Shown piece after piece: positions 24,805-43,395 of a stretch of DNA of 64,000 bases. A model generated the notes under the pieces. That model was given only the letters and a program-made list of their open reading frames with translations. It did no database searches and was not told the origin of the DNA. This DNA is from Celeribacter litoreus (GTDB taxonomy: Bacteria > Pseudomonadota > Alphaproteobacteria > Rhodobacterales > Rhodobacteraceae). The translations under genes and the position numbers were made by a program. The DNA is taken from positions 186,001-250,000 of the forward strand of contig NZ_JAIUFY010000013.1 of the NCBI RefSeq assembly GCF_020165855.1, in the 5' to 3' direction. How positions within the stretch are numbered: position 1 is the stretch's first letter; the number at the start of each line of letters is the position of its first letter.

Positions 24805-25500
24805 ATGATGGATACACCCCGCATTCGCGTAGAAGGAGGCTTTCAAAGCGCGCTGATCGTGGACGATCACCCGCTGTTTTGCGACGCCCTATGCATGACG
24901 CTCACGGCGGGGATCGGGATCGGCAAAGTCGACACCGCAGGTTCCCTCGAAGAGGCAATGGCATTTCTCGACCGCTGGGCCGCGCCAGATGTCATCCTGC
25001 TCGACCTGAACCTGCCGGATGTGAACGGTCTCGACGGTCTCGTCAGGCTGACCAAAAAGTGCCCCGAGACGCCTGTGGTGATCGTGTCCTCGGTTGAAGA
25101 AGCCCGCGTTGTGCGCTCTGCGATCCGTGTCGGCGCGGCTGGTTTTGTCCCGAAACATTCGACTCGTGAAGTTTTCCGCTCCGCATTCGAACAGATTGCG
25201 GCCGGAGAGGTCTATTCCCCTGCCGGAGCACTTTCCGCAGGGGATCCGAATGAGAACCTGTCTCCGCGCGAGGATGCGTTGGTCCGTCTGTCCCACCTGA
25301 CACGGCAACAGGCGCGCATCCTGCAACTGATCTGCGCGGGCCAAATGAACAAACAAATCGCCTACGAACTCTCGATTGCAGAGACGACGGTGAAAGCGCA
25401 CGTGACGGCGATCATGCGGAAACTCGGCGTGCAGAGCCGGACCCAGGCGGTGTTGATTGCGCAGCAGGCCAATTTCAACAGCCTCTTGCCTGAGGAATAA
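24805..25500 (+). CDS. LuxR-family response regulator of the alcohol-oxidation island
   Basis: This 231-residue two-domain regulator has a receiver domain (VDDHP acidic pair, phospho-acceptor D67 in LLDLNLPD, Lys in VPKHS) and a LuxR helix-turn-helix (about 165-225, with QMNKQIAYELSIAETTVKAH). It resembles the AgmR/ErbR and FlhR/RfdR regulators that control quinoprotein alcohol or C1 oxidation. It lies just before a FIST protein and a hybrid kinase and opens an island of PQQ-linked genes. Start 24805 was chosen over 24751 because GTAGG precedes it; 24808 is equally possible. It is the best candidate to bind the repeated GGTCGTA motif. Confidence 0.85.
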   Translation: MMDTPRIRVEGGFQSALIVDDHPLFCDALCMTLTAGIGIGKVDTAGSLEEAMAFLDRWAAPDVILLDLNLPDVNGLDGLVRLTKKCPETPVVIVSSVEEARVVRSAIRVGAAGFVPKHSTREVFRSAFEQIAAGEVYSPAGALSAGDPNENLSPREDALVRLSHLTRQQARILQLICAGQMNKQIAYELSIAETTVKAHVTAIMRKLGVQSRTQAVLIAQQANFNSLLPEE

Positions 25501-28951: not shown

Positions 28952-29700
28952 GCGTGCCGCCACCGCTCCGCTGCGCGTTCCCATTTTTGAATGACGAGTA
29001 TCTCAATGGCGAGCATCAGTGCGACAAAGCTCAGCGCGTAGGCGAGCACGTGCGCGGTTTGGAAGTTCTGAAAATGCAGATGGATTTTGAAGCCGACACC
29101 CGTCGAGCGGCCAAGAAACTCCACGACCAAGACGATTTTCCAGATCATGGCGAGGCCATTGCGCGCGGCGATGGCGAAGTAGGGGGCGAGCTGTGGCAAC
29201 AGAATATGCCGGAGCCGTGTCATCGCGGGCATCCTGAATGACTGGGCCATCTCGTCGATGCTTTTGTCCGCCGCCCGCGCGCCATCGCGGAGCGTGACTG
29301 TGACTTGCGCGAGTTTGTTCAATGTAACGGCGGCAATCGCGGCGACCTCATTGAGGCCGATCCAGAGGTAGCAAAGCACTATGATGACCAATGCGGGTAG
29401 GTTTAAGAAGACCGTGACCCATGGGCCGAAGAACCGATCAAGGGCGGGCATCCTTCCCAGTGCGATGCCAAGCGCCGAGCCGAGAACCATTGCGAGCGTA
29501 AATGCGATGACGACCCGCTGAAGCGTCGCAGTGATCTGCGTGCCGAGTTCGCCGCTCATCGCGAGGTCGCGCGTGACCTGAAGCACCGCGATCGGTGAGG
29601 GCAGCACATCGGGATCGGCTTTGAGGGCGCTAAGGATGGCCCAGAGCGCGATCAGCCCGAACAAAGACAGGGCGAGGTTTATGCAGTGAAGACGTGTCAT
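28948..29700 (-). CDS. ABC transporter permease, SsuC/TauC (NitT/TauT) type
   Basis: This 250-residue inner-membrane permease has about six helices and the cytoplasmic EAA-like loop around MAQSFRMPAMTRLRHILLP. Family features such as the FLNLPALVIIVLCYLWIGLNE stretch place it with nitrate/taurine-type permeases. No matching ATPase or binding protein is adjacent. The only orphan NitT/TauT-like ATPase and binding protein in the window are at 39.8-41.4 kb on the same strand, so the three probably form one split transporter. The substrate is unknown. Confidence 0.83.
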   Translation of the reverse strand: MTRLHCINLALSLFGLIALWAILSALKADPDVLPSPIAVLQVTRDLAMSGELGTQITATLQRVVIAFTLAMVLGSALGIALGRMPALDRFFGPWVTVFLNLPALVIIVLCYLWIGLNEVAAIAAVTLNKLAQVTVTLRDGARAADKSIDEMAQSFRMPAMTRLRHILLPQLAPYFAIAARNGLAMIWKIVLVVEFLGRSTGVGFKIHLHFQNFQTAHVLAYALSFVALMLAIEILVIQKWERAAERWRHA

Positions 29701-29728
29701 GATCTGATCTCGATGCTACACCGCGTCG

Positions 29729-29758
29729 GGTCGCAAATCCGGCTGGACTTTGGTCGTA
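29729..29758 (+). promoter_or_regulatory. direct repeat of the GGTCG(T/C)A motif upstream of the NosR-like gene
   Basis: GGTCGCA at 29729 and GGTCGTA at 29752 are spaced 23 bp apart in direct orientation. The second lies in the core GACTTTGGTC (29746-29755) and ends about 36 bp before the ATG. The same element recurs upstream of other genes of the island. Confidence 0.6.
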
Positions 29759-29793
29759 TTCAGCGGGTCGTGCCGCTCCGTTAGCGTCGGAAC

Positions 29794-31878
29794 ATGGTTC
29801 AGAGGTTCGGTGTCTTTTGCCTCACGGTTTTCGTGTGGCTCGCTGCGACCGTCGCCTCTTGGGGCGAGGGGCTGGCACCGCTGAGCCGCGATGAGATTTC
29901 ACCCTATATCGTTCCGCCCTATGCACTGGGTGACCAACTCAACGATAAGGGGGTGTATGAGCTCCTGAATTCCGGCGAAGCGCCGATGGGCTATGTGTTC
30001 GAGACCGGACCACTCGCACCGCTGCCAGGGTTCTCCGGTGCCCCGTTGAATATGTTGGTATTGCTGTCCGAGACGGGACAGTTTCTAGACGTGAAACTCC
30101 TGTCGCAGCGGGAGCCTGTTTTTGTGTCTGGCCTCGGAGAGGAACCGCTGCTCGCGTTTCTCCAGCAATACAATGGCCACGCGATCACCGAGAGTCTCGT
30201 CGTTGGCGTGCCCTATGGGTCTGGGGGGAGCGGGTCCGATCTGGTGTATCTGGATGGGGTGAGTAAGGCGACGGCTTCTGTGCGGATCGCGCATGAGAGC
30301 ATTCTCGCGGCGACGCTCTCTGTGGCGCGGGAAAAGATGCAGGGCTTGGGATCGGGTTCGCCCGCGCGGCCCGACCTAGACTATGAGGAAACTCTGACAT
30401 GGAGCGATCTGGTTGAGCAGGGGATCGCGCAGAACTTACGCGTCACCAATGCCGAGGTCGATCAAGCCTTCGCTGGCACAAAGTGGGCGGACGATGATCC
30501 GGAGGCGGCGGCTGACCCTGATGGCCTCTATCTCGATCTCTGGCTCGTGGATTTGGGACCGCCGTCTATTGCGAAGGCTGTTCTGAGCGAAGAGAGCTAC
30601 GCTGATCTCGCCCGCTTTCTGGAGGTGTCTCCGGAGGCTGAACCGTTATTGGTTATCGACGACGGTCGGCATGGTCTCGTGTCCGAGGACTTCGTCCGGA
30701 ACACGGCGCCGGATCGCCTATCCGCAGAGCAGGGCGGACTGCCCGTCGCGCTTCGGGACGCGGACCTTTGGGTCGAACTGGCAGACGACCTGCCAGATGC
30801 GCAGGTAGCGATGGTGCTACGCGCTGACCGGCGGCTTGGCTTTGATCCCGTATCGGAGTGGGTGCTCAGGGTTCAGGCCGTGCGCGAACATGGCATGTTT
30901 CAGCCGGAACTCGGTGAGGCGCATTTTGAGCTAACCACCTCAGCACCGGCACGCTTTTTCATTCAGCCTGAGGTGATCAAGCCGATGCCTGCGTGGCTGG
31001 AAGCGATCTACAACCGCCAGGCAGACATCATTGTGCTTTCCGTGTTCCTGATCGGCCTACTCGTAGTGCTTTCGGTCTTCATGAGGAAACTTGCGGGGCA
31101 TCGTCACTTCTCCGCAATGCGTCTATCGATCCTCGCCTTTGTCATCGTCTTCGTCGGCTGGTGGGGGCAGGGGCAGTTGTCCATTGTCACCGTGCTCGCC
31201 ACGCTCAGGGCCGCCGCAGGAAACGGCTCCTTCGCCGTTCTGCTCTATGATCCATTCTCGCTTGTGCTCTGGGGCGTTGCGATCCTCGGATTTTTGCTCT
31301 GGGGGCGCGGGCTCTTTTGCGGGTGGCTGTGTCCGTTCGGAGCGATGCAGGAGTTTATGCACCATCTCGGTCGATTGCTCCGACTGCCGCAAATCAGGGT
31401 TTCTGCGCGGACTGACTTCTGGCTGATGAAGCTGAAATATGTCCTACTGCTCGGCCTAATTGGCGTCGCGTTCATCGCGCCGGACTATGCGGAGAAGGCT
31501 GCTGAAATCGAACCTTTCAAGACCGCGATCACAGTCTACTTCGTGCGCGAATGGTATTACGTCGCCTATGCGGTGTTCTGGCTCTTGCTTGGGACTGTCT
31601 TTTTCAAAGGCTTCTGCCGGTATGTCTGCCCGTTGGGTGCGGTCATGGCGATTGGTGGTGTCCTGCGCGGGCGGAAATGGATCGACCGCCGCGAAGCCTG
31701 CGGAAGTCCCTGCCAGCTTTGCCGCGTGAAATGCCGCTATGGAGCAATTCGCAAATCTGGCGCTATCCAATATGACGAGTGTTTCGCCTGCCTAGATTGC
31801 GTCCAGATTTACGACGACCCTCAGCAATGTGTGCCGCTCATCCTCGCTGCGAAAAAGAATAAGGGGGCTACCGTATGA
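29794..31878 (+). CDS. NosR/NirI-like membrane flavo-iron-sulfur protein
   Basis: This 694-residue protein has a signal peptide (1-24), a large periplasmic part and an FMN-binding segment D154-G-V-S-K-A-T160. The last fits the motif where ApbE links FMN to Thr. Membrane helices start at about residue 408, with the polyferredoxin-type membrane motifs CGWLCPFG and CRYVCPLG. A C-terminal cysteine-rich [4Fe-4S] region follows (CGSPCQLCRVKC and CFACLDC). This is the layout of NosR, which feeds electrons to nitrous oxide reductase. No nosZ is present; an ApbE gene overlaps it and PQQ-linked genes surround it. I infer a quinol-to-periplasm redox role in alcohol oxidation or its cofactor maturation. 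Confidence 0.82.
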   Translation: MVQRFGVFCLTVFVWLAATVASWGEGLAPLSRDEISPYIVPPYALGDQLNDKGVYELLNSGEAPMGYVFETGPLAPLPGFSGAPLNMLVLLSETGQFLDVKLLSQREPVFVSGLGEEPLLAFLQQYNGHAITESLVVGVPYGSGGSGSDLVYLDGVSKATASVRIAHESILAATLSVAREKMQGLGSGSPARPDLDYEETLTWSDLVEQGIAQNLRVTNAEVDQAFAGTKWADDDPEAAADPDGLYLDLWLVDLGPPSIAKAVLSEESYADLARFLEVSPEAEPLLVIDDGRHGLVSEDFVRNTAPDRLSAEQGGLPVALRDADLWVELADDLPDAQVAMVLRADRRLGFDPVSEWVLRVQAVREHGMFQPELGEAHFELTTSAPARFFIQPEVIKPMPAWLEAIYNRQADIIVLSVFLIGLLVVLSVFMRKLAGHRHFSAMRLSILAFVIVFVGWWGQGQLSIVTVLATLRAAAGNGSFAVLLYDPFSLVLWGVAILGFLLWGRGLFCGWLCPFGAMQEFMHHLGRLLRLPQIRVSARTDFWLMKLKYVLLLGLIGVAFIAPDYAEKAAEIEPFKTAITVYFVREWYYVAYAVFWLLLGTVFFKGFCRYVCPLGAVMAIGGVLRGRKWIDRREACGSPCQLCRVKCRYGAIRKSGAIQYDECFACLDCVQIYDDPQQCVPLILAAKKNKGATV

Positions 31879-32747
31879 GACTATCACGCCGTCGTTTTAT
31901 GACCCTGTCCGCTGCGGCTGTGATGCTTCCGCAAGGCGCGCAGGCCGCGCGGTGGCAGGGGCGGATGTTCGGGGCGGAGGTGTCGCTGGAATTGGTCGGC
32001 GCGCGGGAGGCTGTCTCAGCGGACCTGAAAGATGTGCAGGACCGGCTCGCTGAAATCGAGCAGCGTTTCTCTCTTTTTAATCCGGTGTCAGAACTTTCAC
32101 GCTTGAATAATGAAGGAGTGGTCGACGCAAGTTCTGACATGATCGATGTGTCGCGAATCGCGTCGGCTGTCTATCTTGCGACAGGGGGAGCCTTTGACCC
32201 GACGGTTCAGAGCATTTGGGAAGCGCTCGCGATGGGAGAGGAGCCTTCTGCTCGAGCCGTTGGGTTTGATCGGGTCTTTGTCGAGGCCACGCGCGTCCGA
32301 TTGGGTGAAGGTCAAAAGCTCACGCTCAATGGGATCGCTCAGGGATTTGCGACTGATTGCGTGCGGGCTCTCCTAGTGGAGCGCGGGTATCGAAATGCCC
32401 TGATCAACATAGGGGAATACGCTGCGCTGGGCGGGCCGTTTCGGGTGGGGCTATCCGATGCCTCGGTGGGGCGCCTCGGCGCAATCAACTTGGAAAACAA
32501 ATCCGTCGCGACGTCTTCACCCGATGCCATGAAGGTAGGGGAGCGGTCTCATATCTTGAGCCCCAATGGAGGGCGCCCCCTCTGGTCGACGGTTTCTGTC
32601 GAGGCGGAAAGCGCGGCGCTCGCGGATGCCTGCTCGACCGCATTCTGCCTCATGCCGCGATCCGAAATCGAACAGGCCAAGCATGCGCTCGGCCTGTCTC
32701 GGGTATTTCTCGTGGATCTGGAGGGTGATCTGTCGACGCTCTCCTGA
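31875..32747 (+). CDS. apbE: FAD:protein FMN transferase (ApbE/NosX family)
   Basis: This 290-residue exported protein begins with a Tat-like signal (SRRRFMTLSAAAVML). It has the ApbE features FDPTVQSIW, LNGIAQGFATD, NIGEY and the C-terminal DACSTAFCL. ApbE transfers FMN from FAD to a Thr in target proteins. The target is very likely the NosR-like protein encoded immediately upstream, which it overlaps by four bases (ATGA). The pair corresponds to NosR-NosX, but in an alcohol-oxidation setting. Confidence 0.87.
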   Translation: MRLSRRRFMTLSAAAVMLPQGAQAARWQGRMFGAEVSLELVGAREAVSADLKDVQDRLAEIEQRFSLFNPVSELSRLNNEGVVDASSDMIDVSRIASAVYLATGGAFDPTVQSIWEALAMGEEPSARAVGFDRVFVEATRVRLGEGQKLTLNGIAQGFATDCVRALLVERGYRNALINIGEYAALGGPFRVGLSDASVGRLGAINLENKSVATSSPDAMKVGERSHILSPNGGRPLWSTVSVEAESAALADACSTAFCLMPRSEIEQAKHALGLSRVFLVDLEGDLSTLS

Positions 32748-32748
32748 C

Positions 32749-33660
32749 TTAACGCTCCGGCATCAGATAGGTAAGGCCGTGCTCTTCAAAGATCGCCCGA
32801 ATGCGCCCGTCCGCGAGGGCTTTCTCGATTGCGTAATCCACCGCATAGCCCAAATCTCTGTGCTGGTGGTTCACCGCGATCCCGATGGTCCATTCCTTTC
32901 TGGCAAGGCCGGGTAGAGGGGGGCGGTGCACATCGAAGCCTTCGGTTAAACCGGCCTCGATCACAGCAAGCGGAGCCATACTCGCCATCGTTTCGCCCGC
33001 GACCATTGCGGCGACGGCAGCATCACTTGTGGCATAGCGCTGGATCGCCTCGGAGACGGACCCGCGACCGATGCTGGAGAGGTAGAAGTCGGAGATCGAG
33101 TCATTCTCGACGGCGACCGTATCGAACCGGAAGTAGGCTGGCGTCGGTTTGTCATCCGGCTCGGGATAATCCGTGAGGCTATATCCGATGGCGAGTGACT
33201 CTGCCGCGTATTGGCCAGTGAACATCACCTGTTCGATGCGGCAGGTGAGTTCCGAATCATACGGAACATGCAGCATGACGTCGGAAACCCGACCGCCGAC
33301 TGTGGCGCCCTTCCAAACGTAATTGCGCAGGTCGCTGTCGAGGTTTTCATCGGCCTGAACGAGGCGGAAGCGCGGCTCGACGCCGAGGTCCTCGGCAATG
33401 ATCTTTCCGATCTCCACATCCACGCCGATGACTTTGCCGCCCTCATTGTAGGACCATGGAGGGAAGTCCTCGTAGAGCGCAAACTCGATCCACCCTTCAT
33501 CGAGGATGCGGTCGAATTCTCGGCCCACGTCTTGGGAGAAGGTGTTCTGTGGTTTCTCTTGCGGGACATAGTCCTCGCAGCGCGCGAACGCCGGCCCCGC
33601 AAAAGCGAGACAGGCGATTAGGCCACTCAGAAGGCCCTTTTTCAGACCCTGCTGCAGCAT
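32749..33660 (-). CDS. MxaJ/XoxJ-like periplasmic binding protein of quinoprotein systems
   Basis: This 303-residue type II periplasmic binding protein has a signal peptide (about 1-26, ending AFA). The sequence after it (FALYEDFPPWSYNEGGKVIGVDVEIGK) is typical of the quinoprotein-dehydrogenase-associated binding proteins related to MxaJ. These are thought to help mature or activate PQQ dehydrogenases rather than import amino acids. It lies 3 bp downstream of the PedF-like cytochrome gene on the minus strand, so the two form one unit, and it converges on apbE. Confidence 0.85.
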   Translation of the reverse strand: MLQQGLKKGLLSGLIACLAFAGPAFARCEDYVPQEKPQNTFSQDVGREFDRILDEGWIEFALYEDFPPWSYNEGGKVIGVDVEIGKIIAEDLGVEPRFRLVQADENLDSDLRNYVWKGATVGGRVSDVMLHVPYDSELTCRIEQVMFTGQYAAESLAIGYSLTDYPEPDDKPTPAYFRFDTVAVENDSISDFYLSSIGRGSVSEAIQRYATSDAAVAAMVAGETMASMAPLAVIEAGLTEGFDVHRPPLPGLARKEWTIGIAVNHQHRDLGYAVDYAIEKALADGRIRAIFEEHGLTYLMPER

Positions 33661-33663
33661 TGT

Positions 33664-34341
33664 TTAGTTCGCAGCAGACAGGCCGACGGTGAGCAAATCC
33701 GCCGCGTGTTTCCACGTGCTTTTGTCTTCGGTGAGGGCGCGAGATGCTTCGAATGCCACGCTGTCTGCGATAGGAGCACCAGACCCGGTTTCGACGCTTG
33801 CTGCGATTTCTGCGAGTTCGGCTTTCACCGCGACCGGATCAGCGAGATCGCCTGCGAGAAGGTGGTCGCGGATTTCCGTCAGTCGGGTCATGTGGCTGTC
33901 GAGCGCACCGTCATCCGGACGGGTTTCGATGTAGGTGCGGATGGCCCAAGCAGCTTTCTGCCCGAGAAGTTCGCCGAATGCGGGCATCTTGGTGATGCCG
34001 TTCTGGGTCATGCCGAACTGGAAACGCTCCACATACCATTCATCGCCATACTCTTCGGCTTCGAGGTAACGCAGGTCAGGGGCAAGACCACCGGACACTG
34101 CACCGAGACCGTGACAGCGGGCACAGTTCTGGTTGTAACCGGAGGACCCGATCTCGATTGCTTTGAGCCAGGCTTCTTCGCCGACGGCCTCTGCGCGATA
34201 GGGATTTTCGATGAGCCACTCTTCGCCCACGTCAGGCAGGGCGTCGGTGTTCACAGGTTGCGGCGTCACGTCGCCGTGAGCGAATGCGCTTGTGGCGAGG
34301 GCAGTCGCGGCAGCAGCCGCAAGCAGCATGGTGCGTTTCAT
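33664..34341 (-). CDS. cytochrome c550, PedF-like
   Basis: This 225-residue periplasmic cytochrome has a signal peptide ending SAFA (about residue 21), followed by HGDVTPQPVNTDALPDVGEE, an N-terminal stretch characteristic of PedF. It has one haem motif CARCH with Met ligand candidate KMPAFG, and a long helical C-terminal tail. PedF-type cytochromes accept electrons from PQQ ethanol dehydrogenase. The start at 34341 (MKRTML) gives a normal signal peptide. It is divergent from the binding-protein gene at 34491, and two GACCTTGGTC motifs lie between them. Confidence 0.87.
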   Translation of the reverse strand: MKRTMLLAAAAATALATSAFAHGDVTPQPVNTDALPDVGEEWLIENPYRAEAVGEEAWLKAIEIGSSGYNQNCARCHGLGAVSGGLAPDLRYLEAEEYGDEWYVERFQFGMTQNGITKMPAFGELLGQKAAWAIRTYIETRPDDGALDSHMTRLTEIRDHLLAGDLADPVAVKAELAEIAASVETGSGAPIADSVAFEASRALTEDKSTWKHAADLLTVGLSAAN

Positions 34342-34398
34342 TTCTTCCTCCATAGCTTTCCTTAAGGCTTAACTCGGGTCTCCGATGTGGCGCCATTA

Positions 34399-34408
34399 GA
34401 CCTTGGTC
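34399..34408. promoter_or_regulatory. GACCTTGGTC site, copy 1 between divergent genes
   Basis: Inverted arms AGACC/GGTCT flank a TT centre. It lies between the PedF-like cytochrome (minus) and the Ped-type binding protein (plus). A second copy is 31 bp away, about three helical turns. Confidence 0.6.
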
Positions 34409-34429
34409 TGCCTCATGAGAACGGGGTGC

Positions 34430-34439
34430 GACCTTGGTC
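34430..34439. promoter_or_regulatory. GACCTTGGTC site, copy 2 between divergent genes
   Basis: This is an identical 10-base core to the copy at 34399, in the same orientation. It lies 52 bp before the ATG at 34491 and could serve either divergent promoter. Confidence 0.6.
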
Positions 34440-34490
34440 TAATTCTCGGTCAGACGTGTGAGCGCTAGCGTATTGAAAGGGAGGACTTTC

Positions 34491-35678
34491 ATGAGACGTT
34501 TGCTGCGCAGGACAATTTTTCTTGCTCTCTTCGCGTGCGTCGGCGTGGCCGGTGCAGTCGCGGAGGCGCGCGCGACTCTTGAGGTTAAAATTGGCTATCT
34601 CCGGATGGAGCGCCCGCCACGTCCGGTCCTGTCGAATCTGGACGAAATCCCGCCGCGCCGAGGTATCGAGGGCGCGGAGCTTGCGCTCTCTGACAACATG
34701 ACGACCGGCGCATTCCTAGGTCATGACTATGCGCTTGAGGTTGTTTCCGTGCCCGTCGGAGGTCCGCTTGACGAAGCCGCAGCGCAGTTGCTCGCCACGC
34801 ATGATCTCGTTGTTCTGGATATGCCTCTGGCCGACGTGCAGATGGTTGCGGATATGGCGGGTGATCAGAAAATCCTGTTCAACGCAGGCGCGCGCGATCA
34901 TGAGCTGCGCTCCGCCGGATGCCGCGCGAACCTGCTACACACGATTCCTGAAACCGGCATGGAAGCTGATGCGCTCATGCAGGTTTTGCTCGCGAAGAAA
35001 TGGACAAAACTCGCGCTGATCGAGGGGCCGACGGTCGAGGATCAAGCGCTGGCAGACAGTTACCGGAAGTCCGCGCGGAAATTCGGACTCAAGATCGTGT
35101 CGGAGAAACAGTGGACGTTCGATACCGATCTTCGGCGCGCCGCTTCGCGTGAGGTTCCGCTCTTTACACAAGGTTTTAAAGATCATGACGTCCTGCTCGT
35201 TGCAGACGCACACGACGATTTCGCCCGCTACATCGAACACAATACATGGAAACCGCGCCCCGTCGTCGGGTCGACGGGCCTCATGGCGCGGGCGTGGTTT
35301 CCGGTTGTCGAGCAATGGGGCGCAGCGCAGCTTCAGTCGCGTTTTAAGGATATGACAGGCCGAGACATGACGCCGGAGGATTACGCCGCTTGGGCCGCTG
35401 TCCGCGCGGTCGGTGAGGCCGTGACGCGGACGGGGAGCAATCAGGTCGATGTGCTGCGCGCGTATCTCCTGTCTGACGACTTCGCGTTGGCTGCGTTTCA
35501 GGGGCGGCCACTGAGTTTTCGCGCATGGAACGGACAGTTGCGCCAACCGCTGCCTGTCGTGAACGCGAGAGCACAAGTTGCGAGTGCGCCGCTCGACGGG
35601 TTCGAACACGCGCGCAACCCGCTTGATACATTGGGAACAGATCAGGTGGAAAGCGCCTGTCAGGCATTTGGAGAGTGA
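34491..35678 (+). CDS. ABC-type periplasmic binding protein of the PQQ alcohol dehydrogenase system
   Basis: This 395-residue protein has a signal peptide (about 1-29) and a type I periplasmic binding fold. Its sequence (KIGYLRMERPPRP, then RRGIEGAELALSDNMTTG) matches the family found only with PQQ alcohol dehydrogenases. It heads a five-gene same-strand run with a YVTN propeller, a small exported protein, an ATPase and a permease. Comparable Ped and Lut clusters have been linked to lanthanide uptake in Pseudomonas putida and methylotrophs. Start 34491 has GGGAGGA upstream; the longer frame from 34458 lacks a signal. Confidence 0.85.
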   Translation: MRRLLRRTIFLALFACVGVAGAVAEARATLEVKIGYLRMERPPRPVLSNLDEIPPRRGIEGAELALSDNMTTGAFLGHDYALEVVSVPVGGPLDEAAAQLLATHDLVVLDMPLADVQMVADMAGDQKILFNAGARDHELRSAGCRANLLHTIPETGMEADALMQVLLAKKWTKLALIEGPTVEDQALADSYRKSARKFGLKIVSEKQWTFDTDLRRAASREVPLFTQGFKDHDVLLVADAHDDFARYIEHNTWKPRPVVGSTGLMARAWFPVVEQWGAAQLQSRFKDMTGRDMTPEDYAAWAAVRAVGEAVTRTGSNQVDVLRAYLLSDDFALAAFQGRPLSFRAWNGQLRQPLPVVNARAQVASAPLDGFEHARNPLDTLGTDQVESACQAFGE

Positions 35679-35679
35679 C

Positions 35680-36639
35680 ATGAAACGGTTTCTACTGACC
35701 ACCGCATGCCTGTTGATGGCGTCGCCGACGCTCGCGGCGGAAATCTGGGTGAGTAATGAGAAGGACGACACGATCAGTGTGATCGACGTAGAGACGCTCG
35801 AGGTCACACGCACCATCCCGACGGGGGAGCGACCGCGCGGGATCACGTTCAACTCGGACTATTCACGGCTTTATATCTGCGCCTCGGACAGTGATGCGGT
35901 GCAGGTGATGGACCCCGTCACGGGCGAGATTTTGCACGACCTGCCGTCCGGTGAAGACCCCGAACAATTCGTGCTCGCGCCCGACAACCGTCATCTCTGG
36001 ATCGCGAACGAAGACGACGCTGTGACCACAGTTGTGGATGTTGAAACACGCAAGGTCGTCGCGCAGATCAACGTCGGGATTGAACCCGAAGGAATGGCAG
36101 TGTCGCCGGACGGAAAGACCGTCATCACGACTTCTGAGACCACCAACATGGCGCATTGGATCGACACGGAGTCGCATCAGATTTACGCCAACTCCCTCGT
36201 CGACGCGCGCCCGCGCCACGCGGAATTCGTGAATGAGGGAACTGAGCTTTGGGTGTCAGCAGAGATCGGTGGGACGATCTCAATCTTCGACACGGCCACG
36301 CAGCAGGAAAAAGCAAAGATCGGGTTCGAAATTCAGGGCGTGCATCCTGACCTGATCCAGCCCGTGGGTTTTGAATTCACGCCGGATCACAAGACCGCCT
36401 TCGTCGCGCTGGGTCCGTCCAACCATGTCGCTGTCATCGACGCGGAGACGCTCGAAGTTGAGGGCTACATCCTCGTCGGGCGCCGTGTTTGGCACCTCGC
36501 GTTTTCTCCGGACCATACGCGACTTTTCACGACGAACGGCGTGAGTGGGGACGTCACTGTGATTGATGTCGCCTCGCGAAAGCCGGTCAAAACGATCAAA
36601 GTCGGTCGCTTCCCTTGGGGCGCGGCGATGAAGCCTTGA
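35680..36639 (+). CDS. periplasmic YVTN beta-propeller protein of the PQQ system
   Basis: This 319-residue protein has a signal peptide ending LAA (about 1-18) and then some seven YVTN/NHL-type blades. Repeats such as VSNEKDDTISVIDVETLEV, VMDPVTGEI and VTVIDVASRKPVKTIKVG are visible. Propellers of this family occur with PQQ-dependent catabolism genes and the Lut-type lanthanide transport cluster. Its exact role is unknown. It starts 2 bp after the binding-protein stop and is surely co-transcribed. Confidence 0.86.
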   Translation: MKRFLLTTACLLMASPTLAAEIWVSNEKDDTISVIDVETLEVTRTIPTGERPRGITFNSDYSRLYICASDSDAVQVMDPVTGEILHDLPSGEDPEQFVLAPDNRHLWIANEDDAVTTVVDVETRKVVAQINVGIEPEGMAVSPDGKTVITTSETTNMAHWIDTESHQIYANSLVDARPRHAEFVNEGTELWVSAEIGGTISIFDTATQQEKAKIGFEIQGVHPDLIQPVGFEFTPDHKTAFVALGPSNHVAVIDAETLEVEGYILVGRRVWHLAFSPDHTRLFTTNGVSGDVTVIDVASRKPVKTIKVGRFPWGAAMKP

Positions 36640-36649
36640 GGAGAGCATC

Positions 36650-37093
36650 ATGCGATATCTGACACTGGCGGCGGCGCTGTTCGCAGCGACATCGGCGTTT
36701 GCGGATGATCACGATGAGGAGAAGATTTTCGGAATGGCGGGTATTCTGTCCGCGACCAATTCCGAGGATTTGCCTCTGATCCTTTTGTCAGCAGGACAGC
36801 CGTTGGCTGAGGCTCCGCTGAAACTCAAATCCGGCACCTATTATGAGATCGAGATTGAGGCCGACGGGTCGCAGGAGCTTGCGCTTGCGGGAGCTGATTT
36901 CTTTCGTGCGATCTGGATCGACGAGATTGTCATAGAAGGGATCGAAATCCGCCCCCTCGGCGTGGACAGTTTCGAATTCGATGAGGCCGGTACGATGGAA
37001 GTCAGCTTCGTTGCGATCAAGCCCGGCAGCTATGAGTTAAGAGTTCCGCAGTCCAAGGGCGATCTTCAACGTCTAAGCATCACCATCGAGTGA
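36650..37093 (+). CDS. small exported protein of the PQQ-linked ABC cluster
   Basis: This 147-residue protein has a signal peptide (about 1-18, ending SAFA), a short acidic stretch DDHDEE and then a beta-rich domain that may be cupredoxin-like (ending GSYELRVPQSKGDLQRLSITIE). I recognise no catalytic or clear metal-binding signature; Met, His and Cys ligands of a blue-copper site are not evident. It lies between the propeller and ATPase genes and overlaps the latter. Its fixed neighbourhood suggests a periplasmic accessory of the transporter. Confidence 0.72.
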   Translation: MRYLTLAAALFAATSAFADDHDEEKIFGMAGILSATNSEDLPLILLSAGQPLAEAPLKLKSGTYYEIEIEADGSQELALAGADFFRAIWIDEIVIEGIEIRPLGVDSFEFDEAGTMEVSFVAIKPGSYELRVPQSKGDLQRLSITIE

Positions 37094-37803
37094 TGGGGTT
37101 GAGCGTCGAACATATCTCCCACGACTGGGGCAAGAAGCGGGCGCTAGATGACGTCTCGTTTCATGTCGCGTACGGCGAGTTCTGTGCTCTGCTCGGGCCG
37201 AACGGTGCGGGGAAATCGACGCTCTTTGCCTTGCTCACCGGATTGGTTTCACCGCGTCAGGGGCGGATTGAAATTGCTGGATCGGATATCGCCACAGCGC
37301 CGCGTGCCGCCTTGTCGCGTATGGGCGTCGTGTTTCAGCAGCAGACGCTCGATCTCGATCTGACGGTTTGGCGGAACATGCTCTATTTCGCAGGACTGCA
37401 CGGTATCGTGGGTAAGGCCGCGCGCGTTGCGTCGCAAGAGGCGCTGGAGCGACTCGGAATGGTTGAGCGCGCGAAGGAGCGCGCGCGCGATCTCAACGGC
37501 GGGCATCGACGGCGGCTCGAAATTGCGCGGGCGCTGATGCATCAGCCGGAGGTGCTGTTGCTCGATGAGCCAACCGTTGGTCTCGATGCCGCCAGTCGGA
37601 AGTCCCTCACGGATCATGTCCATTCGCTGGCACAGGACACGAAATTGAGCGTCCTCTGGGCCACGCATTTGACGGATGAGGTCTATGCTGGGGATCGGCT
37701 CGTTGTTCTCCATCGTGGGGCGGTTCTCGAAAACGGCTACGCGCAGGAAACCAGCTCTGACCTGACGGACCGCTTTCTGTCTCTGACGGGAGAGGCCGCA
37801 TGA
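37093..37803 (+). CDS. ABC transporter ATP-binding protein of the PQQ alcohol dehydrogenase system
   Basis: This 236-residue ATPase is of the DrrA/CcmA type. It has Walker A GPNGAGKS, an unusual signature LNGGHRRRLEIARA (N and H in place of the common S and Q) and Walker B VLLLDEPTVGLD. The switch His is in ATHLTDE. It belongs to the ATPase family specific to PQQ alcohol dehydrogenase loci and pairs with the PedC-like permease, which it overlaps by four bases. A GTG at 37090 is an alternative start. Confidence 0.86.
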   Translation: MGLSVEHISHDWGKKRALDDVSFHVAYGEFCALLGPNGAGKSTLFALLTGLVSPRQGRIEIAGSDIATAPRAALSRMGVVFQQQTLDLDLTVWRNMLYFAGLHGIVGKAARVASQEALERLGMVERAKERARDLNGGHRRRLEIARALMHQPEVLLLDEPTVGLDAASRKSLTDHVHSLAQDTKLSVLWATHLTDEVYAGDRLVVLHRGAVLENGYAQETSSDLTDRFLSLTGEAA

Positions 37804-38591
37804 ACAACGCGCTCACAGCCTTGATTGCGATCTGTCAGCGCGAGTTGCTCCGCTTCTTCGGCCAGCGCGCACGGATGCTTGCTGCACTCGTCCGTCCGTT
37901 GATTTGGCTCCTCGTTTTTGCCGCCGGTTTCCGCGCGGCGCTCGGGTTGTCGATTACGCCGCCCTATGAGACCTACATCACCTATGAGAGCTACATCGTG
38001 CCGGGTCTCTGCGGAATGATCCTGTTGTTCAACGGGATGCAAAGCTCTCTGTCATTGGTCATGGATCGGGAGATGGGGACCATGCGCCTCTTGCTCACGG
38101 CACCGGTGCCGCGATGGTGGCTCTTGTCGTGCAAGCTCATCGCGGGGGCGGTGATTTCGGTGCTGCAGGCCTATGTCTTTCTCGCCGTCTGCGCAATGTA
38201 TGGGATCACCTTTGCGCCGGTGAGCTATATCCTCGCGCTGCCCGCATTGTTCCTCACTGCATTGATGCTCGGCGCGCTCGGCATTGCGCTGTCATCGACC
38301 GTCAAACAATTGGAGAACTTCGCAGGCGTCATGAACTTCGTGATCTTCCCGATGTTCTTCCTCTCATCCGCGCTCTACCCGCTCTGGAAAATGGCGGAAG
38401 CATCGGCACTTTTGCGCGACATATGTTTGGTCAATCCGTTCACGCATGGCGTCGAAATGATCCGGTTCGCGCTCTACCAAAAGGTTGATTGGATCAACTG
38501 GGCGGTGACGCTCGTCGCTCTCGCGGTGTTCCTCGGGCTAGCGCTCTGGGGATACAATCCGGCCAAGCGACTGATTTCCCGTAAAGTCTAG
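37800..38591 (+). CDS. ABC-2 type permease, PedC-like
   Basis: This 263-residue membrane protein has six helices and the ABC-2 motif region (SSLSLVMDREMGTMRLLLTAPVPRWWLL, then the NFVIFPMFFLSSALYPL segment). It belongs to the alcohol ABC transporter permease (PedC) group. It is the last gene of the binding protein-propeller-ATPase-permease run. ABC-2 permeases normally export, yet genetic work in P. putida ties PedA1A2BC to growth with rare earths, so the direction of transport is open. Confidence 0.86.
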   Translation: MNNALTALIAICQRELLRFFGQRARMLAALVRPLIWLLVFAAGFRAALGLSITPPYETYITYESYIVPGLCGMILLFNGMQSSLSLVMDREMGTMRLLLTAPVPRWWLLSCKLIAGAVISVLQAYVFLAVCAMYGITFAPVSYILALPALFLTALMLGALGIALSSTVKQLENFAGVMNFVIFPMFFLSSALYPLWKMAEASALLRDICLVNPFTHGVEMIRFALYQKVDWINWAVTLVALAVFLGLALWGYNPAKRLISRKV

Positions 38592-38617
38592 GTCGCATAT
38601 TCGACCCGACCTTGGTC
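38591..38617 (+). promoter_or_regulatory. direct repeat GGTCGCA with GACCTTGGTC upstream of the Sel1-like gene
   Basis: GGTCGCA occurs at 38591 and again at 38614, 23 bp apart in direct orientation. The second is in GACCTTGGTC (38608-38617). The spacing equals that upstream of the NosR-like gene. Confidence 0.6.
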
Positions 38618-38671
38618 GCATTCGGGAAGTGCTGTGTCTCTGGCATCCTTGGATCAAAGGGAGGCGCCATC

Positions 38672-39241
38672 ATGAGAGTGAGCGTATGTATCATCGGGGC
38701 GTGTCTCGCCCTGCCGCTTTGGGCTGAGGACAAGGCGATGGATCTCGGGCCGGACACAGAAGTGTCTGAAGACGGCATTCTCAACCCGCACGAGATGTCG
38801 ATGGCTCAGGTTATGGACAAGATCAGGCAGGGTGAGACCGGCATGGTGCTCTGTTCGCAGGGGTATCTCGTCACGAAATCCGGCCGTCACGAATTGGCGC
38901 GAGAATTGTTCTCGAATTGCTCGGACGCGGGGTGGACAGGGACCATGACGTGGATGAGCCAACTCGACGATAACGGTTTGGGCGGCCCTCAGGACCTCGA
39001 AGCCGCGGCCGAGTGGAACCGCAAAGCGGCGGAGGCAGGCGATCCGGTCGGCAAGTTCAATCACGGTCTGGACCTGATGCGCGGCTGGGGTGTGGCGCGT
39101 GATCCGGAGGCAGGTCGTGCTTTGGTCGATGAAGCCGCGCGGGATGGGTTGCCGGTGGCCAAGCGACTGCAAGCGGCGGAATATGATCTCGATGAGGTCA
39201 CGCCTGATGCCGATGAATGGCGGTATTTCCAACTATATTGA
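38672..39241 (+). CDS. exported Sel1-like repeat protein
   Basis: This 189-residue protein has a signal peptide (about 1-18) and helical Sel1/TPR-type repeats. One is AAAEWNRKAAEAGDPVGKFNHGLDLMRGWGV, which I give here only in part: residues about 105-135, with the typical A-x-W and G-x-G positions. Two cysteines are well separated and could form a disulfide. The start at 38672 follows AAAGGGAGG. Its own motif-bearing promoter and position inside the island suggest a periplasmic accessory or scaffold for alcohol oxidation; no specific function can be assigned. Confidence 0.75.
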   Translation: MRVSVCIIGACLALPLWAEDKAMDLGPDTEVSEDGILNPHEMSMAQVMDKIRQGETGMVLCSQGYLVTKSGRHELARELFSNCSDAGWTGTMTWMSQLDDNGLGGPQDLEAAAEWNRKAAEAGDPVGKFNHGLDLMRGWGVARDPEAGRALVDEAARDGLPVAKRLQAAEYDLDEVTPDADEWRYFQLY

Positions 39242-39267
39242 ACTCCTCCAGGGGGAGGGTTGAGGGA

Positions 39268-39295
39268 GACGCCTACGACTTTGGTCGTAGGCGTC
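39268..39295 (+). terminator. strong hairpin after the Sel1-like gene
   Basis: A perfect 12-bp stem (GACGCCTACGAC with GTCGTAGGCGTC) has a 4-nt loop and is followed by TTTCG. It can act as a terminator. Its tip contains the island's GACTTTGGTC motif, so the same DNA may instead, or also, be an operator. Confidence 0.55.
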
Positions 39296-39309
39296 TTTCG
39301 ACCAATGTC
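39277..39309. promoter_or_regulatory. two GAC-N-TTGGTC sites in opposite orientation upstream of the cytochrome c gene
   Basis: GACTTTGGTC lies at 39277-39286, and GACCAATGTC (reverse of GACATTGGTC) at 39300-39309. They start 23 bp apart. A degenerate FNR-like site, TTGCGCGAGATCAA, follows at 39321-39334. Confidence 0.55.
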
Positions 39310-39396
39310 GCCCCGTGCTGTTGCGCGAGATCAAGCCTTTGAACGGGCCAATCCGCGAAGGTGCTTTCGAACATGAAAGCGCCTTAGGAGGTTCTT

Positions 39397-39783
39397 ATGA
39401 AATCAGGATTTATGTTTGCAGCCGTTGTCCCGGCTTTCTTCGCAATCACTGCGCAAGCGGGCGAATATGACGCGCTCAAGATTTCTGCCGGTGAGGATTT
39501 TTTCGATAAGGAATGCCACCGCTGCCACTCCGTTGATGCGGATCGGGCGAGCTATGGTCCGCTTTTGAATGGCGTCGTCGGTCGGAAAGCCGGCTCTTTT
39601 GAGGGCTACCCCTACTCTGAGGTTCTGCAGAATGCAGGCTTCGTTTGGACGGAAGGTGCCATTCGCGCATGGATGGAAGATAACGACGGTCTCGTCCCAG
39701 GGACGAAGATGCGCCACGTTGGCGTCAGTGATCCGACCGTTCAGGACTTCATTGTGAGCTATCTGGCGTCGCTGACCGAGTGA
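39397..39783 (+). CDS. small periplasmic class I cytochrome c
   Basis: This 128-residue protein has a signal peptide ending AQA (about 1-21), one haem motif CHRCH near residue 40, and the Met ligand in GTKMRHVG near residue 107. The spacing is that of short c2/c550-type cytochromes. In the island it is a natural electron carrier between the PQQ dehydrogenase (or the PedF-like cytochrome) and the terminal oxidase. AGGAGG lies upstream of the start, and the gene has its own promoter region with island motifs. Confidence 0.87.
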   Translation: MKSGFMFAAVVPAFFAITAQAGEYDALKISAGEDFFDKECHRCHSVDADRASYGPLLNGVVGRKAGSFEGYPYSEVLQNAGFVWTEGAIRAWMEDNDGLVPGTKMRHVGVSDPTVQDFIVSYLASLTE

Positions 39784-39794
39784 CGGAAGAGCGG

Positions 39795-40433
39795 TCAGGT
39801 CAGGTGGGCCGGTTGGCCCGCCAGCCGCAAGTGGCGCGTTGCCAATCGGCGGGCCTCTGACTCCACGTGTGTCACCAGTAGGGTTGTGACCTGATGAGTG
39901 CTTCGAAGGCTCTCGAACAGGCTCATCATCTCGTCCGCGAGGGCGGGATCGAGTGAGACAAAGGGTTCGTCGAGCAAAAGCAACTCTGGATCGGCTGCGA
40001 AGGCGCGGGCGAGGGAAAGTCTGCGCTGTTGGCCGAGGGAGAGCTGCGTAGGGAAGTGATCGGCCTTGTCCTGCAATCCAACCGCAGCGAGCCAATTCAT
40101 CGCCGTGTCGCGGGAGCAGCCGGTGGTGAGCGTTATGTTCTGGAGGCTCGATCTCCACGGGAGCAGCGTTGGCTCTTGAAAAACCGTCGCAATCCGTTCG
40201 GGCCGCCGGACGTCTCCGGTATAGTCGGTGTGTAGTCCCGAAATCACGCGCAGCAGGGTCGACTTGCCGACACCCGACGGGCCGGTCAGTGCAACGGTTT
40301 CACTCGGGAGGATATCAAGCCGAATGGCTCCGAGGATTGGAGCCCCACCTGCGCGCACTTCTTCGAGCCGCAGGCTCAGGGGGAGGCGCATGCGCTCCCC
40401 CTCGCTGTGAGTGATGTCCAATGACATCTGCAT
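39795..40433 (-). CDS. ABC transporter ATP-binding protein, NitT/TauT type
   Basis: This 212-residue ATPase is compact. It has Walker A GPSGVGKS, a Q-loop VFQEPTLLPWRS typical of nitrate/taurine-type ATPases, the signature LSLGQQRRLSLARA and Walker B LLLLDEPFVSLD. The switch His is in VTHVESEA. The ATG at 40433 lies 4 nt past the stop of the upstream binding-protein gene, indicating coupling; Met codons at 40427 and 40391 are alternatives. The matching permease is not next to it but at 28.9-29.7 kb. Confidence 0.84.
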   Translation of the reverse strand: MQMSLDITHSEGERMRLPLSLRLEEVRAGGAPILGAIRLDILPSETVALTGPSGVGKSTLLRVISGLHTDYTGDVRRPERIATVFQEPTLLPWRSSLQNITLTTGCSRDTAMNWLAAVGLQDKADHFPTQLSLGQQRRLSLARAFAADPELLLLDEPFVSLDPALADEMMSLFESLRSTHQVTTLLVTHVESEARRLATRHLRLAGQPAHLT

Positions 40434-40437
40434 CGGC

Positions 40438-41415
40438 TCAGGACGACGGTTCGTAGAAGAGGCCATCCGGCAATGTGGTTGCCTTGCCAACGAGGTCCTC
40501 ACCGCCGAGATCGGCCATGAGAGACAGCATCTTTGCTGCGTCCTCTTTGGAGACGGAGCCTTCTGCAGGGATGCCCGCAATCCAGCCGGCTTTGAGAGCG
40601 TCGAATTGTGCGTCGTTTTTCACGTTCATCCGATCGCGCAAGCGATCCCAAGCGGCGTCATCTTTCGCGAGCAACTCTTTCGCTGCACGCGAGGCGCGGG
40701 AGAGGCCTTCGACTACTTCGGGGTGCTGTTCGAGAACTTCTCCGCGCACCACATAGCCGAGCAAGGGGGTGTCCGGGTTGAGGCCGAGAGAAACCGCAGC
40801 CTCGGAGGTCGATGTCAGGAGGCGCATACCGGAGGCTTCCATCTTCGCACCGAAATGCCAGAAGTTGATCGCACCATCCAACTCACCACCAAGAGCCGCT
40901 TTAAAAATCAGAGGTGGGGCGCCAAAGACCTGTTCCGTCTCACCTTTTAGGTCGAGCCCGCTCTGCTTCTCAGCATAGGCGCGTAGGATCAGCCAGCTTT
41001 TGTCGTTCGGACCACCTGCGATCCCGACTTTTCCGCCCGCGAGATCTGCAAGGCTCTGTGCATTGCTGTCTTTCGGGACATAGATGCCACCGACCGCTTT
41101 GGAATACGGGATAAAGACATAATCTTTGCCCTCTGCGCGCTGGGATGCGACCCACAGCCAGTCGGCAACAATCATGTCCACTTCGCCTGCCGCAAGGGCA
41201 ACGCGAGACGCGGGGCCACCAGCGACATCCATTGCCTCAAGGGTAAAGCCGTTCGCGGAGTCGAACCCGTTGTGTTGGATAGTGTCGACCTCCCACGCCA
41301 CGGTCCCGGACATGTAGAGAGCGGCTTTGAGGGTCGGTGTGTCTTCTGCTTTCGCGGAGCCGGCGATAACTGCGGCGGCCGTGAGGATAGATAGCCCTTT
41401 GATGAATTTGGTCAT
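40438..41415 (-). CDS. ABC transporter substrate-binding protein, NitT/TauT type
   Basis: This 325-residue periplasmic protein has a signal peptide ending AKA (about 1-22). The fold follows the SsuA/TauA pattern: GGPASRVALAAGEVDMIVADW, then a lobe with GIAGGPNDKSW. The ligand is not predictable. Its operon partner is the ATPase downstream. GGGAGGA precedes the chosen start at 41415; the longer frame lacks a signal. It is divergent from the alcohol dehydrogenase gene, and the 213-bp spacer holds several GGTCGTA motifs, suggesting co-regulation. Confidence 0.84.
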   Translation of the reverse strand: MTKFIKGLSILTAAAVIAGSAKAEDTPTLKAALYMSGTVAWEVDTIQHNGFDSANGFTLEAMDVAGGPASRVALAAGEVDMIVADWLWVASQRAEGKDYVFIPYSKAVGGIYVPKDSNAQSLADLAGGKVGIAGGPNDKSWLILRAYAEKQSGLDLKGETEQVFGAPPLIFKAALGGELDGAINFWHFGAKMEASGMRLLTSTSEAAVSLGLNPDTPLLGYVVRGEVLEQHPEVVEGLSRASRAAKELLAKDDAAWDRLRDRMNVKNDAQFDALKAGWIAGIPAEGSVSKEDAAKMLSLMADLGGEDLVGKATTLPDGLFYEPSS

Positions 41416-41466
41416 GGTGAGTCCTCCCTGAATTTCGAGAGTAGGAGGGAGAGGTCTCGGTGGAAA

Positions 41467-41479
41467 TACGACCAAAGCA
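41467..41479 (-). promoter_or_regulatory. GGTCGTA motif (minus strand) between the binding protein and PQQ dehydrogenase genes
   Basis: TACGACC at 41467-41473 continues as AAAGCA. On the minus strand this reads TGCTTTGGTCGTA, close to the copy upstream of the NosR-like gene. Confidence 0.55.
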
Positions 41480-41496
41480 CGGGCCGAAAAGGGGTG

Positions 41497-41517
41497 GGTC
41501 GTAGCGGATTTACGACC
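41497..41517. promoter_or_regulatory. inverted repeat GGTCGTA-N7-TACGACC upstream of the PQQ dehydrogenase
   Basis: Two perfect 7-base arms (41497-41503 and 41511-41517) form a 21-bp inverted repeat 112 bp upstream of the dehydrogenase ATG. This is the most symmetric copy of the island motif. Confidence 0.62.
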
Positions 41518-41628
41518 AATGGCCAATTTAAAGCTCACGCCCTCGTGACCCACGATACGACACAGTGCTGCCGATGGTGAAGACTCGCTTCAAGAGGTGC
41601 CAAGGGCAGATCAAAGGGAGGAAGACTC

Positions 41629-43395
41629 ATGAAAAAGTTCGTATCCGCCAGTTTGGCGGCTGTGCTCTGTGTTGGCACAGCGACCGCGTCCTTCGCGGCC
41701 GTGACTGAAGAAGATCTGTTGAATGACGCCAGCACCACGGGCGACGTTCTCACCAACGGGATGGGCCGCGATCTGCAGCGCTACTCCCCGATGGACACTC
41801 TGAATAAAGACAACGTGCAAAACCTCGTTCCTGCGTGGGCCTTCTCGTTCGGTGGTGAAAAGCAGCGCGGTCAGGAAACCCAGCCGCTCATCCATGATGG
41901 CATCATGTATGTGACGGGCTCCTATTCGCGCCTCTATGCCATCGACGTCGAGACCGGCAAGGAAATCTGGCAATACGACGCCCGCCTTCCCGAAGGCATC
42001 CTTCCCTGCTGTGACGTGATCAACCGCGGCGGCGCGATCTACGGCGACAACATCTATTTCGGCACGCTCGACGCACGCATCGTGGCGCTGGACCTCAAAA
42101 CCGGCGACGTGAAATGGAACAAGAAGATCGCCAACTACAAAGAAGGTTACTCCTACACGGCAGCTCCGCTGATTGTTGACGGCCTCGTCGTGACTGGTAA
42201 CTCCGGCGGTGAATTCGGTATCGTTGGCGAAGTTCAGGCCCGTGACGCTGAAACCGGTGATCTGGTTTGGACCCGTCCGGTGATCGAAGGTCACATGGGC
42301 ACGCTCAACGGCGAAGAGTCCACGATGACCGGCACGCTGAACGCAACCTGGCCGGGCGACATGTGGAAAACCGGCGGTGGCGCAACGTGGCTCGGCGGTT
42401 CTTATGACGCCGACACCGACACTTTGATCTTCGGCACCGGCAACCCTGCGCCGTGGAACTCGCACCTCCGTGACGCGGGCACCCCGAAAGAGGGCAACAC
42501 CGGCGACAACCTTTACGCAGCCTCCCGTCTCGGCATCGATCCGGCCACCGGCGAGATCAAATGGCACTTCCAGACCACACCGCGCGAAGGCTGGGACTTT
42601 GACGGTGTGAACGAAGTGGTGGCCTACACCGACCGTGATGGCAATAAGCGCTACGGCACGGCCGACCGCAACGGCTTCTTCTACGTCCTGAACCGTGAAG
42701 ATGGCGCATTTGTTTCTGCCGCCCCGTTCGTGTCAGATATCTCCTGGGCCGAAGGCATCGATGAAAACGGTCGCCCGATCTACAACGAAGAAAACCGTCC
42801 GGGGAACCCGCTCGAAGCTGAAAAAGGCGAGATGGTCTTCTCCGTGCCGTCCTTCCTCGGTGGTAAGAACTGGATGCCGATGGCGTTCTCCCAGCGCACC
42901 GGTAACTTCTATGTGCCGTCCAACGAATGGGGCATGGACATCTGGAACGAGCCGATCGCCTACAAAAAAGGTGCTGCGTACCTCGGCGCTGGCTTCACCA
43001 TCAAACCGATCTTCGAAGATCACATTGGTTCTCTGAAAGCGATCGATCCGGATACCGGCGAGATCAAGTGGAACTTCAAGAACGATGCGCCTCTCTGGGG
43101 TGGCGTGATGACCACCGCTGGCGGCCTCGTGTTCTTTGGCACACCTGAAGGTGAGTTCATTGCCCTCGACGACGAAACCGGTGAGAAACTGTGGTCCTTC
43201 CAGACCGGCTCCGGCATCGTTGGTCAGCCTGTGACCTGGGAACAAAACGGTGAGCAGTACGTCTCTGTCGTATCCGGCTGGGGTGGCGCTGTTCCGCTCT
43301 GGGGTGGCGAAGTGGCCAAGAAAGTGAACTACCTGAACCAAGGTGGCACTGTTTGGACCTTCAAACTGCCGAAGCAACTGGCCTCCGCCAACTAA
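41629..43395 (+). CDS. PQQ-dependent alcohol dehydrogenase, lanthanide-type (ExaF/PedH-like)
   Basis: This 588-residue periplasmic quinoprotein has a signal peptide (1-23) and an eight-bladed propeller. It aligns along its length with ethanol dehydrogenases of the ExaA group ([31 protein letters not shown]-like, [18 protein letters not shown]). The vicinal disulfide pair is C127-C128. The catalytic Asp is D323, and D325 two residues on (WDFDG) is the extra acidic ligand found in lanthanide-dependent enzymes; the calcium enzyme ExaA has Ser there. No haem motif is present. Ethanol and other short alcohols are the likely substrates, forming aldehydes, with electrons passed to cytochrome c. No pqq synthesis genes are in the window. 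GGGAGG precedes the start. Confidence 0.92.

Follow-up and report, generated by a model that had tools for sequence, protein, structure and literature searches.

The closest described counterpart of the element treated here, a 16-bp inverted repeat recurring between the genes of a pyrroloquinoline quinone (PQQ)-dependent alcohol oxidation island in a 64,000-nucleotide stretch of Celeribacter litoreus DNA (contig NZ_JAIUFY010000013.1; hereafter the window), is the ACTU motif of the response regulator CrbR/ErdR. The ACTU study reports that the motif is needed for activation by CrbR and that it spans -52 to -36 at acs (PMC5715377), a position resembling the centre near -44 that -10-like hexamers predict for the island sites. 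The two elements share the same half-sites in an imperfect inverted repeat, with all 20 scored ACTU sites (23 are printed) fitting the matrix of window sites in register 0, at 7.8–17.7 bits, a level equalled by at most 1 of 2000 shuffles. Most of these 20 sites are themselves predictions of that study, three being given there with q below 0.05 (PMC5715377).

The regulator encoded at 24805–25500 of the window is, like CrbR/ErdR, a LuxR-type response regulator with a related helix-turn-helix (HTH). Its best NCBIfam model is ErdR (NF041830), which it matches at 181.7 bits, below the 390-bit cut-off, whereas L097 and L113 reach 425 and 434 bits. CrbR/ErdR differs further in its targets, which are acetate-use genes (acs and actP, in Pseudomonas, Vibrio and others), and in having an SLC5/STAC-type kinase. 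The window regulator has the receiver domain and GerE HTH typical of the NarL/FixJ (LuxR) class, in which NarL dimers recognise a 7-2-7 inverted repeat, a geometry that the island site fits. This inverted repeat is not common to all relatives, since the related RpuS/R system is reported to require an imperfect direct repeat (PMC9100948).

In gene arrangement the window resembles two further groups of systems. The two-component pairs AfdRS, RfdRS and FlhRS, described in two reports as serving formaldehyde and C1 oxidation in related bacteria (PMC4776306, PMC8879981), have a third gene between regulator and kinase (AfdR/AfdT/AfdS and RfdR/RfdT/RfdS in Rhodobacter sphaeroides, FlhR/orf2/FlhS in Paracoccus denitrificans), the window counterpart being regulator, NosP and NahK; the middle genes presumably encode FIST/NosP proteins. 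These systems differ from the island in that their reported target, adhI/flhA, has no upstream site in this genome (1.3 bits, a result that tests the site and not regulation). AgmR/PedR1/ErbR of the Pseudomonas ped/exa cluster, a LuxR-type activator whose gene neighbours nosP and that of a NahK-type kinase (PMC12997753), shares with the window the nosP and nahK/pedS1 genes, the PQQ alcohol dehydrogenase cluster and the pedABC genes. No operator for AgmR was found in the open-licence literature, nor, in the same literature searched mostly by named regulators, was a printed operator for the PQQ islands of the Rhodobacteraceae. The element described here appears to be a new operator, akin to the known ACTU class from the acetate regulator, and it is very likely the class II activator operator of the neighbouring response regulator.

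A 7-2-7 inverted repeat between the island genes

The repeating unit is a 16-bp inverted repeat of approximate form TRCGACY-WW-RGTCGYA, with two 7-bp arms and a 2-bp centre (7-2-7), rather than the 7-mer GGTCGYA by which the first-pass annotation of the window had described it. The 7-mers which that annotation listed are present at 29729, 29752, 38591, 38614, 41467 (minus strand), 41497 and 41511 (minus strand), as are GAC-N-TTGGTC cores at 29746, 34399, 34430, 38608, 39277 and 39300 (minus strand), the 7-7-7 arrangement at 41497–41517, and the 23-bp start spacing of the half-sites 29729/29752 and 38591/38614. The pair placed at 39277 and 39300 has both cores, but the GGTCGTA of the first begins at 39283 and the second reads GGTCGAA on the minus strand. 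The motif had also been held to be restricted to the island, which proves true of one form of it and false of another. The 7-mer occurs 28 times in the window against 17.2 expected (28 being reached in 0 of 100 shuffles), with 20 copies lying outside the places originally listed, and taken alone it was rejected as a marker of the regulon. The 10-mer GACNTTGGTC has six copies in the window, every one of them in the island (0.49 expected; six reached in 0 of 100 shuffles).

When the 64 kb were scanned with a matrix built from 32 distinct sites of orthologous islands, window sites excluded, the seven top-ranked places (34427, 39274, 38605, 29743, 39297, 41511 and 34396) all fell in island intergenic regions, with the eighth at 11.4 bits; the 32 sites had been chosen with the window-site matrix, so that this ranking is only a partly independent test. 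Single matrix hits mean little, because random sequence also yields hits of at least 12 bits, first-order sequence of window size containing a mean of 1.65 such places (maximum five in 40 trials) and a best single score of 20.2 bits. The evidence is the clustering of hits in five short regions, not any single hit. Sites stand upstream of eight genes or operons, those of the permease, the NosR-like protein, PedF, the PQQ-ABC operon, orf189, cytochrome c550, the SsuA-like protein and the alcohol dehydrogenase (ADH). The features are as follows, ABC denoting ATP-binding cassette and SBP substrate-binding protein.

24805–25500, plus strand: LuxR/NarL-type response regulator, proposed binder (receiver domain and GerE HTH; Pfam PF00072, Response_reg, and PF00196, GerE)
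25539–26741, plus strand: FIST/NosP-type protein
26696–28951, plus strand: NahK/ErcS-type hybrid histidine kinase, presumed partner kinase
28948–29700, minus strand: ABC permease, first gene of the island run
29713–29718, minus strand: -10-like TAGCAT of the permease gene, beginning 25 bp past the site
29729–29735, plus strand: upstream half-site GGTCGCA; next half-site (29752) 23 bp away
29743–29758, plus strand: site CTGGACTTTGGTCGTA, common to the permease (minus strand) and NosR-like (plus strand) promoters
29782–29787, plus strand: -10-like TAGCGT of the NosR-like gene, beginning 24 bp past the site
34396–34411, minus strand: site for the divergent PedF-SBP genes
34427–34442, plus strand: site TGCGACCTTGGTCTAA of the PQQ-ABC operon, top score of the window
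34466–34471, plus strand: -10-like TAGCGT of the PQQ-ABC operon
38591–38597, plus strand: half-site GGTCGCA, preceding that at 38614 by 23 bp
38605–38620, plus strand: site CCCGACCTTGGTCGCA of orf189
39274–39289, plus strand: site TACGACTTTGGTCGTA in the cytochrome c550 promoter region, sole exact match in the genome to TRCGACYWWRGTCGYA
39297–39312, minus strand: further c550 promoter site, 23 bp away from that at 39274
39321–39334, plus strand: degenerate FNR-type box TTGCGCGAGATCAA
41467–41482, minus strand: site for the SsuA-like gene, with -10-like TACTCT at 41438–41443
41497–41503, plus strand: half-site GGTCGTA; right arm of the 41511 site 23 bp away
41511–41526, plus strand: site TACGACCAATGGCCAA of the PQQ alcohol dehydrogenase
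41629–43395: PQQ alcohol dehydrogenase, last gene of the island run

After the permease the run continues with the NosR-like gene, an ApbE-family gene, the genes for the SBP and the PedF-type cytochrome, the PQQ-ABC genes, orf189, cytochrome c550, and the ABC ATPase and SsuA-like genes, before ending with the dehydrogenase; the regulator, FIST/NosP and NahK-type kinase genes lie upstream of it.

Comparison with orthologous islands, which the first-pass annotation had proposed as a check, bears the element out. Nine orthologous loci were found with one protein, five in Celeribacter and the others in Pseudoprimorskyibacter, Maritimibacter, Aquimixticola and Pseudooceanicola. Loci L130–L132 were set aside as duplicates, their contigs being equal in length to those of L036, L037 and L033. 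Scanning with a matrix built from eight window sequences, and leaving junctions with missing flanking genes uncounted, placed a site in all 45 island junctions examined (five kinds, ten genomes), 40 of which lie outside the training window, at scores of 10.7 to 20.1 bits with 0–5 of 200 mononucleotide shuffles as good. By comparison, 1 of 58 control junctions reached 10 bits (the gap between the regulator and NosP genes of L035, 13.5 bits). In alignments of six or seven genomes each, the sites form conserved blocks amid diverged surroundings, less clearly at the divergent PedF/PQQ-ABC junction.

Position of the sites within promoters

Alignments anchored on the site reveal -10-like hexamers (TAGCGT, TACAGT, TATCCT and others) recurring at a preferred distance. 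Of 43 island promoters, 28 have the best hexamer of 52 offsets beginning 23–26 bp past the site, where about three would be expected if offsets were equal; the count covers seven of the ten island genomes, avoiding near-identical Celeribacter copies, excludes the c550 promoter, and includes one L033 site (I3 junction) moved 23 bp by hand to the gene-proximal position. This spacing was noticed first and counted later, with a more independent test given by the PQQ-ABC promoters of other genomes (18 of 26 with the same spacing) and by coxG promoters elsewhere (9 of 10). With the hexamer taken as -12 to -7, the centre of the site would fall near -44, in line with class II activators. Matches to the -10 hexamer are poor at the orf189 promoters and at several of those of PedF and ADH. 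Sites or half-sites are often paired at 23 bp (39274/39297, 29729/29752 and 38591/38614 in the window, and 14161/14184 in L031).

Two gene starts are touched by these hexamers. At the NosR-like gene, TAGCGT stops six bases short of the ATG (region 29782–29796), which suggests a leaderless message. The start of PQQ_ABC_bind is probably ATG 34491, which follows GGGAGG; the listed GTG 34458 is in the same frame and lies upstream of the putative -10 element.

At the c550 promoter the layout differs, with two boxes 23 bp apart followed downstream by TTGA-N6-TCAA, a pattern which we take to be that of an FNR-type box. It is exact in seven of the nine loci with a c550 junction (L031–L036 and L038, five of the seven in Celeribacter) and degenerate in the window and in L039. 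As the sites here lie upstream of the FNR-type box instead, the arrangement suggests that oxygen or redox state contributes to control as well. In this genome the first c550 operator is contained in the 14-bp stem of a hairpin at 39258–39302 (-29.5 kcal/mol, z -7.4), which may also terminate orf189 transcription.

The regulator and competing explanations

The first-pass annotation had proposed the LuxR regulator at 24805–25500 as the binder of the element, a proposal supported by its kinship with the ACTU class and by the company that the regulator keeps. It is found in all nine orthologous islands, the L034 copy being cut by the locus end and the L037 copy placed after the dehydrogenase, with NosP and the kinase not found in L033 and L036 of these nine loci. 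Six tabulated island regulators are identical over 52–56 of 56 HTH residues and, where complete, over 79–88 of 114 receiver residues. Beyond these islands, 110 of 295 genomes have a PQQ_ABC_bind match, and in the best 30 of those loci a site lies upstream of PQQ_ABC_bind in 26 (at least 11.2 bits, with at most 5 of 200 shuffles as good), the matrix never scoring above 8.0 bits inside the gene across the 30 loci. The siteless loci L042 and L063 have regulators of 44% and 43% identity nearby, L052 has its genome's only regulator, of 44%, on another contig, and L064 has regulators of 45% and 62% elsewhere in the genome.

On this reading, a phosphorylated dimer of the regulator would bind the 16-bp 7-2-7 repeat centred at about -44, in the place expected for a -35 element, and would activate transcription in class II manner, often with a second site or half-site 23 bp, or about two helical turns, away. 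Phosphorylation would come from the NahK-type kinase, presumably on an alcohol- or aldehyde-related cue.

Several observations weigh against this reading. Control junctions are shorter than island junctions, one of them (2 bases) being too short to hold a site, and half-sites are conserved only in part. The regulator's own promoter is without a site, at most 9.2 bits being reached across the nine regions upstream of the regulator in island genomes; the earlier statement that nearly every transcription unit carries the motif thus stands for the eight genes or operons from permease to ADH but not for the regulator, and autoregulation in the island genomes is unsupported. A genome-wide scan had also been proposed in the first-pass annotation. 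Profile R1, trained on island sites, yielded seven hits at E ≤ 10 that correspond to four places, all in the island (among the best 150 of 1252 candidates). A relaxed palindrome was unenriched, with 25 places compared with 35 for the reversed control pattern. Three of the 25 lie in the island and 22 outside, and at 14 of the latter that were inspected the longest covering reading frame is at least 150 aa in 11 cases and shorter in three. The island probably makes up most of the regulon in this genome.

The association of sites with the regulator subfamily is also confounded with phylogeny, and common descent may explain part of it. Seven of the 26 site-bearing PQQ-ABC loci have their regulator on another contig or far away (L045–L047, L049, L050, L057 and L065), and for site-bearing L061 none was found in a genome 73% complete. 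Moreover, 35 and 38 of 56 HTH residues are retained by the diverged L124 and L125 regulators, and 36 and 37 by two ErdR proteins, with no site of at least 12 bits before PQQ-ABC in L124 or L125. HTH similarity alone is therefore not predictive of a site, since L124 and L125 match the level of ErdR without one.

The remote or missing regulators, and the failure of HTH similarity to separate site-bearing from siteless cases, would suit a regulator of the same fold encoded elsewhere that binds the sites, leaving the neighbouring regulator to control something else, and the half-site is common to related regulators, as seen from the ACTU motif. We consider this unlikely, given that the neighbouring regulator is the sole homologue in its genome at E ≤ 1e-40 among the matches listed (best 9 of 31 candidates), that it accompanies the island in all nine named orthologues, and that regions with the regulator but lacking PQQ genes also have sites.

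It is likewise improbable that the regulator binds and represses through an operator overlapping the -35 region. Repression has precedents in two reports, RfdRS being thought to repress adhI (PMC4776306) and erdR deletion having raised most of the tested targets (PMC9927353). The predicted position of the sites nevertheless equals that at the CrbR-activated acs promoter, and AgmR, AfdRS and FlhRS are described as activators. That the repeats are terminator parts, or conserved by chance, and not operators is very unlikely. The very stable hairpin around 39274–39289 in this genome speaks for it, but the hairpin is much weaker in L031 (-9.8) and L034 (-16.0) with the 16 bp retained, which led us to reject that palindrome as a terminator only, and the other sites precede genes and keep a favoured distance to a -10-like hexamer.

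A further site-like sequence, TTCGCCATAGGTCGAA or close to it, occurs near the 3' end of nosP, just before the kinase gene (window 26624; weaker, at 9.5 bits), and recurs in L121, L123, L165, L166, L179, L180 and L183; it may reflect codon conservation or an internal site. With regard to the cofactor of the dehydrogenase, nothing in genome G000 reaches the curated PqqE cut-off, and a PqqC search, whose controls were also silent, gave no match there; PQQ synthesis may be absent from it.

Sites beyond the alcohol oxidation island

Similar sites also occur at loci of a different kind. Ten regions of the family were collected around regulators of 62–66% identity lacking an adjacent PQQ-ABC gene. 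All ten have coxG close by, with an upstream site of 11.2–16.9 bits and 0–4 of 200 shuffles as good; in L167 NosP and the kinase were not found within the locus. The L171 operon codes for a molybdenum hydroxylase, the large subunit of which does not reach the cut-offs of the glyceraldehyde dehydrogenase and carbon monoxide (CO) dehydrogenase models, and AYRGAGR is present in nine of the ten coxG loci, a loop which we presume to be the form II CO dehydrogenase (CODH)-like signature. The true substrate of the form II CODH-like enzyme is, to our knowledge, unsettled.

A second set of ten regions was collected for regulators apart from a PQQ-ABC gene, with one PQQ island included. In this set the L184 regulator adjoins coxG with a site, those of L176–L178 adjoin ADH genes with sites, and those of L179–L183 adjoin neither. 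In L165–L174 and L184, from other genomes of the family, a regulator relative and an operator-like site are found beside coxG and a form II CODH-like operon. The PQQ island, L175 of genome G104, has five intergenic sites of at least 12 bits and lacks the regulator, and the only regulator of G104 among the matches listed adjoins coxG (L173), which also has a site; a single regulator may run both the PQQ island and coxG in trans in this genome.

The class III alcohol dehydrogenase gene adhI/flhA has a promoter site in 2 of 20 other genomes that carry the regulator and in none of five without it, and general control of adhI/flhA through the same site was rejected on the former count.

A precise, testable candidate operator, a promoter geometry and a regulon are given for PQQ-dependent alcohol oxidation in the Rhodobacteraceae. 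We suggest, tentatively and as a possibility that is far from established, that the regulator (usually with the FIST protein and kinase) and the 7-2-7 box form a portable control module that this family uses both for the PQQ alcohol island and for the operon of coxG. In that case the form II CODH-like enzyme may fall under an alcohol or aldehyde response instead of CO oxidation, and the coxG loci offer a route to what controls, and perhaps to what is oxidised by, this enzyme.

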